A stretch of DNA of 64,000 bases, from contig NZ_KI911784.1 of the NCBI RefSeq assembly GCF_000516515.1, positions 1,520,881-1,584,880 of the forward strand, given 5' to 3'. Both the position numbers and the translations under genes were made by a program. Positions 47,596 through 50,587 of the stretch are shown here, one piece after another. The first letter of the stretch is position 1. Each line of letters opens with the position of its first letter. The notes under the pieces are model-generated. The model searched no databases. It saw only the letters and a list, made by a program, of their open reading frames with translations, and had not been told where the DNA came from. Origin of the DNA: Chloroflexus sp. Y-396-1 (GTDB taxonomy: Bacteria; Chloroflexota; Chloroflexia; Chloroflexales; Chloroflexaceae).

Positions 47596-48210
47596 ATGGC
47601 TTTTGAAGTTCCACCGCTACCCTACGCTTACAACGCTCTCGAACCGTACATCGATGAAGCAACGATGCACTTTCACCACGATAATCATCATCAAACCTAC
47701 GTGACCAACCTGAACAACGCTCTGGCAAATTATCCTGAGTTGCAGAGCAAGACGATTGAGGAGCTGTTGAGCAACCTTGACGCTATTCCTGAAGCTATTC
47801 GGACGGCGGTACGCAACAACGGTGGCGGGCACTGGAATCACACCTTTTTCTGGGAAATTATGGCCCCCAATGCCGGTGGTGCGCCCGATGGTGAGTTGGC
47901 TGCGGCAATCGACGCTGCCTTTGGCAGCTTCGATGCTTTCAAGGAGCAGTTTAAAGCAGCAGCCCTAGGCCGATTCGGGTCAGGCTGGGCCTGGCTGGTA
48001 GCCGCCAAGGATGGCAGCCTAAGCATTATGAGCACACCCAATCAGGATAATCCGTTGATGGAGGGGAAGACGGCAATCCTCGGCATTGACGTGTGGGAAC
48101 ACGCCTACTATCTGAAATATCAATACAAACGCGCCGCTTACGTTGATGCCTGGTGGAACGTGGTGAATTGGGCGAAGGTTGCTGAGCATTATGCTGCTGC
48201 GAAAGGCTAG
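47596..48210 (+). CDS. sodA: Superoxide dismutase, Mn type
   Basis: Dismutates superoxide to peroxide and oxygen. 204 residues without signal peptide, so cytoplasmic. Metal ligands are His27 (MHFHHDNHH), His82 ([11 protein letters not shown]), Asp165 and His169 ([10 protein letters not shown]). The glutamine next to the metal sits in the C-terminal half ([10 protein letters not shown], Gln150), as in manganese rather than iron enzymes. A strong ribosome site GGAGG precedes the ATG. The SufR-like regulator gene lies upstream and the 53-bp tandem array downstream. Confidence 0.96.
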
Positions 48211-48319
48211 TACTTGATAGAGGGGTATAACGCTATCGTATATCTCTGCTGTGAGTGAACTGGAAAAAACCACGTTCCTCGGTCAGAGAGTGTCTGAAGA
48301 ATAGGTTGCCCTTCCTCAG

Positions 48320-49112
48320 ATGCGCGGGCCGCTGGCCCGCCTGTTGTTGTGCGCACGCAGGGTTGCACGCAGGTGCGCGGGCCGCTGGCCCGCCTTTTAA
48401 TGTGCACGCGCAGGGTTACGCTTAGATGCGCGGGCCGCTGGCCCGCCTGTTGATATGCACGCGCAGGGTTACACGCAGGTGCGCAGACCACTGGCCCGCC
48501 TGTTGTTGTGCACGCGCAGGGTTGCACGCAGGTGCGCAGGCCGCTGGCCCGCCTGTTGTTGTGCACGCGCAGGGTTACACGCAGGTGCGCGGGCCGCTGG
48601 CCCGCCTGTTGATATGCACGCGCAGGGTTGCACGCAGGTGCGCGGGCCGCTGGCCCGCCTGTTGTTGTGCACGCGCAGGGTTACACGCAGGTGCGCAGAC
48701 CGCTGGCCCATCCTTTGATATACGCACGCAGGTGCGCAGGCCGCTGGCCCGCCTGTTGATACGCGTGCGCAGGGTTGCACGAAGGTGCGCAGGCCGCTGG
48801 CCCATCCTTTGATATACGCACGCAGGTGCGCAGGCCGCTGGCCCACCTGTTGATATGCACGCGCAGGGTTGCGCGCAGGTGCGCGGGCCGCTGGCCCGCC
48901 TGTTGTTGTGCACGCGCAGGGTTACACGCAGGTGCGCAGACCGCTGGCCCGCCTGTTGTTGTGCACGCGCAGGGTTACACGCAGGTACGCGGGCCGCTGG
49001 CCCATCCTTTGATGTACGCACGCAGGTGCGCAGGCCGCTGGCCCGCCTGTTGATACGCGTGCGCAGGGTTGCACGCAGGTGCGCAGGCCGCTGGCCCACC
49101 TGTTGATATGCG
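48320..49112. repeat. Tandem repeat array, 16 copies of a 53-bp unit
   Basis: The core GGGCCGCTGGCCC recurs at starts 48326, 48379, 48432, 48485, 48538, 48591, 48644, 48697, 48738, 48791, 48832, 48885, 48938, 48991, 49032 and 49085. Steps are 53 bp except three of 41 bp. The short steps all follow copies reading CCCATCCTTTGAT and lack the same 12 bp. Full units contain GCGGGCC-GCT-GGCCCGC (7-bp stem, 3-nt loop) and then CACGCGCAGGGTT plus CACGCAGG. Because 53 is not a multiple of 3 the array is open in several frames on both strands, giving long Arg/Ala/Cys-rich frames that I judge spurious. It lies between sodA and the lipoprotein gene, which converge on it. Confidence 0.95.
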
Positions 49113-49142
49113 CGAACGCAACCCAGTCTTTCGTAAGACCAA

Positions 49143-49165
49143 GGGGCGAGGTGGTACCTCGCCCC
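49143..49165. repeat. Interspersed hairpin next to the tandem array
   Basis: GGGGCGAGGT-GGT-ACCTCGCCCC: perfect 10-bp stem, 3-nt loop, followed by TAG. A smaller hairpin GTCTT-TCGT-AAGAC lies just before it at 49126-49139. Same design as the hairpins at 5808, 25347 and 58179. Confidence 0.6.
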
Positions 49166-49342
49166 TAGAAGTCGATACCAACGGTTGCATAACCAACAAT
49201 ACCTACCGGTGACCGAGGTTGCGGCTTGTGGGATATGCCCCTTTCGCTCACCCACCAATCTGACAGGGGGCAACAAGCAACGAACTGCATCGCCCGCAAT
49301 GAGACGGTTCGGATCGCGCTTAGAGTCATTATCTCAGTGCAT

Positions 49343-50587
49343 CTACGGCACCCTGAGATCAGGATAGATCCGATAGGTATTGATTATCTCGTCTGTCCGA
49401 CTCACCAGTGCGTCAAATTGCTCAGCCGGTACCAGTGTGGTCAATACCGAAAGCTTGTTCCCACGCTGTTCAATAAAACTGTTTCCCAACATCGACGCCT
49501 GTACATTGTTTGATGCAGTTGCTGTGAATCCCCAGACGATCAGAATGCTGCCGTCGCTCTGCGGTTTTGGGTTTTCGTAGAAGAAATCGGGCTGGTTGCC
49601 AAAAGATGATTGCAGGAAACTAACCATTTTATCGACTAACTGATCATCGCTGTACACTGTACTATCTTCCAGAATGTCAACGATAATCGCCGCATTATTG
49701 CTCGGATCATTCCAGACCAGAATAAGCTCACCGGGACGGCTATTGTCAGTCAATGACCAGTTCTCCGGGATGTCGATTTGGAATACACCAGAGGGATGAT
49801 TGAAGGTTCGGAGGCGACCGACCTGAACCGGTGCGAGGACGGTGCCACCGGCAGCAGGCGTATTACTCCCACCACCAATCGCAGCGCTGGGATTGATGCG
49901 ATAGGTATTGATAATCTTGTCAGTCTGACTCACCAGCGTCTCGAATTGCTCTTCAGGCACCAGGGTGGTCAGGATCGAGACTTTGTCACCGCGTTGCTCG
50001 ACAAAGCTATTCCCTAACATCGTGGTCTGGATGTTGTTTCCGGCGGTAGCGGTATACGACCAGACAACCAGTTGACTACCATCGCTTTGCGGTCGTGCAT
50101 CATCGTAGGAGAAGTCTGGTTGTTGACCAAAGCGCTCTTCGAGGAAGTCCGTGAGCAGCTTTGCGAGCTGACTATCAGAATAACTGCGACTATCCTCAAA
50201 GATATTAACCAGAATTGCACCATTACCTGTTGGGTCTGTCCAGATCAACAACAGCTCTTCTCTAGAACTGTTATCCTGCAACGTCCAATTGTTGGGAACG
50301 TCGATCTTAAACACACCACTCGGATGATCATAGGTCTTGAGCGAGCCAATTTCTACCAGCGCCAACTGCCCGCTTTGCCCTGCTGTCGTCGGTGAAGGAC
50401 GAGGAGTTGCAGTCGGTCGAGCCGGAGCTACGGTCGGGCGTGGAGTACGGGTGGGGAGTGCGACGGCCTGCGTTGGTTCAGTAGTTGGGACAGCAGTTGG
50501 AGCTGCACTACCACCACCACAGGCTGTCAGAGCGAGTAGGAATAGACCGACGAGCGAAAACAACCAGAGCCGATAGTTGTGAGACAT
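49343..50587 (-). CDS. Lipoprotein with two tandem copies of a PsbP/DUF1795-like domain
   Basis: 414 residues. Lipoprotein signal peptide with lipobox LTAC, a Pro/Thr/Arg-rich linker (about 25-75), then two homologous domains (about 80-235 and 255-410). Each begins with L(K/R)T(Y/F)(D/N)HPSGVF and NNWTL or ENWSL, and each ends with MLGNSF(V/I)EQRG and INTYRI; they are clearly an internal duplication. The fold resembles small PsbP/Mog1-like domains found in lipoproteins, but I cannot name a function. The linker suggests it spans cell-wall material outside the membrane. Confidence 0.85.
   Translation of the reverse strand: MSHNYRLWLFSLVGLFLLALTACGGGSAAPTAVPTTEPTQAVALPTRTPRPTVAPARPTATPRPSPTTAGQSGQLALVEIGSLKTYDHPSGVFKIDVPNNWTLQDNSSREELLLIWTDPTGNGAILVNIFEDSRSYSDSQLAKLLTDFLEERFGQQPDFSYDDARPQSDGSQLVVWSYTATAGNNIQTTMLGNSFVEQRGDKVSILTTLVPEEQFETLVSQTDKIINTYRINPSAAIGGGSNTPAAGGTVLAPVQVGRLRTFNHPSGVFQIDIPENWSLTDNSRPGELILVWNDPSNNAAIIVDILEDSTVYSDDQLVDKMVSFLQSSFGNQPDFFYENPKPQSDGSILIVWGFTATASNNVQASMLGNSFIEQRGNKLSVLTTLVPAEQFDALVSRTDEIINTYRIYPDLRVP

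Follow-up and report, generated by a model that had tools for sequence, protein, structure and literature searches.

A tandem array beside sodA in Chloroflexus sp. Y-396-1 is probably a local amplification of a dispersed REP-like palindrome

We analyzed a stretch of 64,000 nucleotides from the genome of Chloroflexus sp. Y-396-1 (hereafter the window; contig NZ_KI911784.1, positions 1,520,881 to 1,584,880). A tandem array of palindrome-bearing units occupies positions 48315–49113 of the window and is built on a dispersed element similar to repetitive extragenic palindromes (REPs). The array follows sodA (47596–48210, + strand), an open frame that Pfam assigns to the Fe/Mn superoxide dismutases and that ends 104 bp before the array. 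On the other side lies a lipoprotein-like gene (49343–50587, − strand), an open frame without a Pfam family that is convergent with sodA. The position between the convergent ends of these two genes had been given correctly in an earlier note on this DNA. Between the array and the lipoprotein-like gene there is one more palindrome, AGGGGCGAGGT-GGT-ACCTCGCCCCT (= AGGGGCGAGGTGGTACCTCGCCCCT), with a stem of 11 bp (49142–49166, not assigned to a strand).

Direct reading, Tandem Repeats Finder and splitting into units agree that the array is real and has 16 copies, as the earlier note stated. It is read on the + strand, on which a tag GGTGC precedes the hairpin. Twelve units are 53 bp long, three are 41 bp long and the last one is partial; the spacing is 53 bp twelve times and 41 bp three times. 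Tandem Repeats Finder reports a period of 53 at 48317–48732 and a period of 294 over 48317–49113. The first hairpin core (48324–48340, + strand) is the perfect palindrome GCGGGCC-GCT-GGCCCGC. At up to three mismatches the core is matched 21 times on the two strands of the window, always within the array (the mean for shuffled sequence is 0.45). The same note ascribed this hairpin to each full unit, which is an overstatement: the 7-bp stem is perfect in six of the 16 units (1, 2, 3, 6, 7 and 12) and has from one to four altered pairs in the other ten.

The short units are 8 (48686–48726), 10 (48780–48820) and 14 (48980–49020). They share a 12-bp deletion beside the variant CCCATCCTTTGAT, as had been noticed before, and are mutually 90–95% alike. 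Units 7 and 12 are identical, and so are units 9 and 15. For the twelve units of 53 bp, mean identity is 0.925–0.928 at lags 5–6 versus 0.899 at lag 1. By unit identities the block of units 7–11 (48633–48873, 241 bp) is related to the block of units 12–16 (48874–49113, 240 bp). Thus the suggestion that blocks rather than single units were duplicated fits the data, and block duplication as a part of array growth has modest support. All units stand head to tail, and the inverted pairs that characterize REPINs (REP doublets forming hairpins) and bacterial interspersed mosaic elements (BIMEs) are absent. We rejected clustered regularly interspaced short palindromic repeats (CRISPR) because the spacers are near-identical copies of one sequence and not unrelated sequences.

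The hairpin core is not private to this locus. We compared the window genome (G000; a single contig of 4,890,986 bp) with seven other genomes of the genus Chloroflexus; below, other G numbers denote compared genomes and L numbers denote loci. The exact core at up to two mismatches has 113 forward and 101 reverse matches in the window genome, 146 and 171 in G007, 39 and 37 in G006, and at most ten per strand in the other five genomes; a reversed-pattern control gives 0–2. With any loop allowed, the window genome has 301 forward and 292 reverse matches (control 3 and 1). As the pattern is nearly palindromic, a site is often counted once on each strand, and these matches correspond to at least 301 distinct sites. 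A search for the tag together with the core at one mismatch finds matches in 14 of 41 genomes, led by G000 (117/105), G007 (68/65), G018 (20/18) and G006 (16/12). A 53-bp family restricted to this place, as the earlier note implied, is therefore not what we see: only the 53-bp period and the spacer are private to the locus.

To describe the element we collected 60 stretches of the window genome, eight other loci of the same genome and the window itself, which gave 154 elements in 63 clusters at up to two substitutions. The 60 stretches were chosen from among the matches listed and do not cover all sites, and arrays may be over-represented in them. A random member from each of the 62 clusters other than the sodA array yields an element of about 28 bp with the consensus CCTGGGWGC-GCGGGCC-loop-GGCCCGC-RT. 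The loop is TCT in 23 clusters, GCT in 14, TCC in 13 and something else in 12. Beyond the limits of the element, information does not exceed 0.37 bits at any position. The tag scores at least 8 of 11 in 55 of the 62 clusters, versus 0.8% for shuffled flanks. None of the 63 clusters lies inside a called open reading frame (ORF); the caller is a crude one based on hexamers, and it finds 90% of the window to be coding. A looser set (up to four substitutions; 299 elements in 77 clusters; 35 compensatory, 285 one-sided and 28 two-sided non-pairing stem changes) was discarded, as it included chance matches.

REPs are palindromes of 20–50 nt that occur in high copy number and are mostly intergenic. 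The size, the copy number and the location of our element agree with this description. REPs of the known superfamily also carry a conserved tag GTAG (or CGTC). Here the tag, likewise one-sided, reads CCTGGGWGC, and for this reason we call the element REP-like and place it outside the GTAG superfamily.

In the sampled stretches, Tandem Repeats Finder detects 13 further arrays that carry the core. The core is common to them and the spacers are unrelated; the periods are 32, 36, 36, 40, 41, 51/101, 69, 69, 71, 87, 97, 201 (a weak array, 60% match) and 228 bp. Four more core-bearing arrays, with periods of 38, 39, 40 and 43 bp, were found in G007. Among 26 multi-copy clusters, 21 contain head-to-tail neighbours and seven contain inverted ones. 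In seven of eight regular arrays (at least three cores and a period of at least 53 bp, the sodA array included) the repeated sequence exceeds whole periods by a stretch of 26–59 bp, which contains the element. In the array at 2275159, 26 of 228 bp are shared beyond whole periods. In the sodA array the shared part is 7 + 17 + 13 = 37 of 53 bp, as read from the outer ends of its two runs (the script misoriented one unit). Most longer-period arrays thus have an element at both ends, which suggests two adjacent copies as the seed of each. A homology-free duplication of random segments would leave whole periods; the seed would therefore seem to be a pair of elements that already stood head to tail.

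REP-associated tyrosine transposases (RAYTs) are candidates for a mover. Matches to Y1_Tnp are present in six of the eight genus genomes, with a single match in the window genome. This only detected RAYT belongs to the NCBIfam REP-associated tyrosine transposase family (88.9 bits at a cut-off of 80). In two compared genomes, G018 and G007, RAYTs of the NCBIfam REP family, also above the cut-off, adjoin elements like ours. The G018 gene is flanked on either side by GGGAGC-GCGGGCG-GCT-CGCCCGC elements, of which the nearest are oppositely oriented. Next to the G007 gene ten elements stand in a run, at the 3' end only; the stem is GCGGGCG in seven of them and GCGGGCC in three. These elements resemble those of the window genome in tag and loop; their stems are mostly GCGGGCG/CGCCCGC, with one pair changed on both sides, and partly GCGGGCC/GGCCCGC. 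The element type is thus linked to RAYTs in relatives and not in the window genome.

Several RAYTs lie in unusual surroundings. In L158 (G007:C92:128800-133900) and L159 (G018:C158:86500-92000) a RAYT and translated REP-like repeats are in frame and without stops inside open frames of 1284 and 1352 amino acids that contain DUF1156 (Pfam DUF1156 and Y1_Tnp), and the insert occupies the same linker in both genomes. This linker is short in G019, G010 and G027; G003 has a different low-complexity insert there. A third RAYT stands in frame, with translated repeats on both sides, within a 1515-aa open frame (L160, G014:C91:4500-10984), which may encode a DNA methyltransferase. In L055 (G003:C1:3877127-3880369) a RAYT-like gene (a frame of 188 aa) is enclosed by tandem repeats, with the same translated sequences recurring on the two sides.

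Among 15 loci of relatives, five (L031, L032, L033, L035 and L036) contain both sodA and the lipoprotein-like gene, and in none of the five is the array present beside sodA. The gaps between the two genes are 2701, 227, 224, 2789 and 73 bp, and four of the five hold no core at up to three substitutions. The gaps have diverged too far for a clean empty site to be demonstrable. The gaps of C. islandicus (L032) and of L033 contain other hairpins preceded by GGAGC, of the GTGCGGCAG..CTGCCGCAC type. Palindromes of this type number 351 in G003, 255 in G007, 198 in G006, 51 in G001, 42 in G002 (control 1), 13 in G005, one in G004 and none in the window genome. The dominant palindrome therefore differs by species. 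The relatives of the lipoprotein-like gene, at 63–74% identity, come from C. islandicus, three metagenome-assembled genomes (MAGs) of unnamed or uncultured Chloroflexus and one Chloroflexota MAG. Its product apparently consists of two similar halves, since separate parts of it align with one and the same stretch of the relatives.

An element of about 28 bp thus occurs at hundreds of sites, outside predicted genes in our sample, and in many arrays with locus-specific spacers, among them the one at sodA. We consider it probable that this array is a local tandem amplification of the dispersed element, which would have been spread by a RAYT and multiplied by slippage or recombination. First, single-strand (Y1/HUH) transposition by a RAYT, either now or in an ancestor, would have spread the element. 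Into the gap between sodA and the lipoprotein-like gene, two copies may then have inserted in head-to-tail order, with about 25 bp between them. Such direct repeats, made worse by palindromes that stall the replication fork, would be prone to slippage or unequal recombination and could yield REP-(spacer-REP)n. Later, whole blocks would have been duplicated, and the stems would have decayed through mutation. Most likely the array grew by copying errors and not to serve the neighbouring genes.

Several observations weigh against this interpretation. The RAYT of the window genome (L126, G000:C1:889187-892828) is flanked not by our element but by a different, GTAG-type palindrome, GTAGCACAGGATTAATCCTGTGCTAC, which has one occurrence in G000 and six in G005. 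The G005 RAYT (L127), 81% identical to it, likewise adjoins GTAGCACAGGATTAATCCTGTGCTAC. Thus the host yielded no cognate transposase, and its RAYT as the mover of the array's element is unsupported by linkage. Elements are also few or absent in some genomes that have RAYT relatives (G001, G005 and G014). The array units match the tag only partly (6–7 of 11 in the 14 units scored), and we therefore regard the array as a diverged member of the family. Stem changes in the 154-element set are 47 one-sided and one compensatory, so the stem shows little sign of being under strong selection at present. The L031 gap holds a lone untagged palindrome, GCTGGCC-ATT-GGCCAGC, two substitutions from the core. 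The array at 3924457 breaks the element-to-element rule. Finally, no variation in the copy number of the array was observed.

The best surviving alternative, which we nevertheless consider unlikely, is that the array was selected as a two-way transcription barrier or as a stabilizer of mRNA 3' ends. The convergence of sodA and the lipoprotein-like gene around it is what one would expect in this case. Flanks could be judged for 44 clusters and not for 19; of the 44, 15 are convergent, 21 codirectional and eight divergent, versus four, 15 and five of the window gaps. A loose terminator scan passes four of the 16 array cores, on the + strand only (seven sites in the region versus 2.7 expected); however, these cores have no real T-run, and stems are decayed in ten units. 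One unit of 53 bp (z of 0.94 and −0.61) and one of 41 bp (z of 1.15 and 1.01) were folded on either strand, and neither did better than shuffled sequences; for the entire array the result is worse than for shuffles (z of +4.2, 20 shuffles). The adjacent palindrome at 49142–49166, one of eight such sites in the genome at up to three mismatches (seven others), folds far more strongly (z of −5.2 and −5.7) and is the likelier transcript-end hairpin. In addition, all five relatives lack the array. Of the earlier proposal that it could stop transcription, a dedicated terminator role finds no clear support. We also dropped the idea that G-to-A changes in the array were selected because they permit G-U pairs on the minus strand: they are striking in the array, but genome-wide the two wobble types number 18 and 16.

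Some enterobacterial REP clusters are binding sites of a nucleoid protein or of DNA gyrase. Our array might have been retained as a landmark of this kind, although we find this a little less probable still. Protein binding to REPs and BIMEs is reported in the accessible part of PMC2817692, and many arrays share the same core in this genome; on the other hand, spacers and periods differ wholly between the arrays, and the presence of the element is species-specific. An assembly artefact is very improbable: the array is known from one assembly only, but the genome was assembled as a single 4.89-Mb contig, the differences between units are ordered, and comparable arrays occur at many other places. 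Least credible of all is a structured RNA, which had been suggested earlier, or a repeat protein, since, despite a hairpin in each unit and open frames that span the array, Rfam has no family at the gathering score within the window, the fold scores are near or above zero, neither period, 53 or 41, is divisible by three, and the hexamer caller gives no gene in the array.

Given the weak folding, the lack of an Rfam match, the stronger neighbouring hairpin and the one-sided stem changes, we interpret the array as having arisen incidentally, from a mobile palindrome and the instability of repeats. Side effects on transcript ends are possible, and any influence on the sodA or lipoprotein transcripts would be of this sort. 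A striking array can thus be explained without a special function. The genome carries more than a dozen separate tandem arrays on one dispersed palindrome. Tentatively, and with slightly more doubt than belief, we extend the proposed scheme: a REP-like element that has no linked transposase in the genome carrying it may be a general seed of minisatellites in the Chloroflexus group. Head-to-tail landings could give REP-(spacer-REP)n of any period, so that each species would have its own set of satellites on its own dominant palindrome (the GCGGGCC type here; the GTGCGGCAG type in G003, which has 351 copies against none here). The separate arrays of this genome make the origin of bacterial minisatellites directly testable, through array ends, spacer origin and copy number across strains.

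REPs and tandem REP clusters as such are already known, and what is added here is the description, by tag and stem, of a REP-like element of the Chloroflexus group. A search of the literature on REPs, RAYTs and palindromic repeats in connection with Chloroflexus or Chloroflexi, whose coverage left out most subscription papers, brought up no description of this element. Earlier papers describe both the tandem amplification of REP clusters together with adjoining DNA and REPs linked to RAYTs, among them GTAG repeats of Chloroflexi (PMC6749651, PMC3733652, PMC8266576, PMC6006769, PMC3116915). The survey of prokaryote satellites, in its accessible part, describes scattered tandem repeats and lists Chloroflexus aurantiacus among the rich species; the Chloroflexus family named there is, however, the heptamer (GATAGRA)n, and transposed non-coding families of long repeats are given there only for Leptospira interrogans and Methanocella conradii (PMC6749651). 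In P. fluorescens SBW25, 16 ordered tandem clusters of REPINs resemble our arrays in having near-identical units that include flanking sequence (PMC3116915, accessible part). They differ in that the unit is an inverted pair and that at most four REPINs follow each other, whereas here single elements stand head to tail in up to 16 units. The GTAG-tagged REP superfamily, as far as the available text of PMC3733652 describes it, has members in Chloroflexi; the Chloroflexus tag is CCTGGGWGC and not GTAG or CGTC. REPs linked to group 3 TnpAREP/RAYT, for example those of S. maltophilia, are described in the accessible part of PMC8266576 as perfect palindromes. They differ from our element, whose tag is not GTAG and which has no linked RAYT in the window genome; they share with it a perfect stem interrupted by 3 nt, a GCT loop in some elements, a tag 5' of the stem and, in G018 and G007, a RAYT beside like elements.
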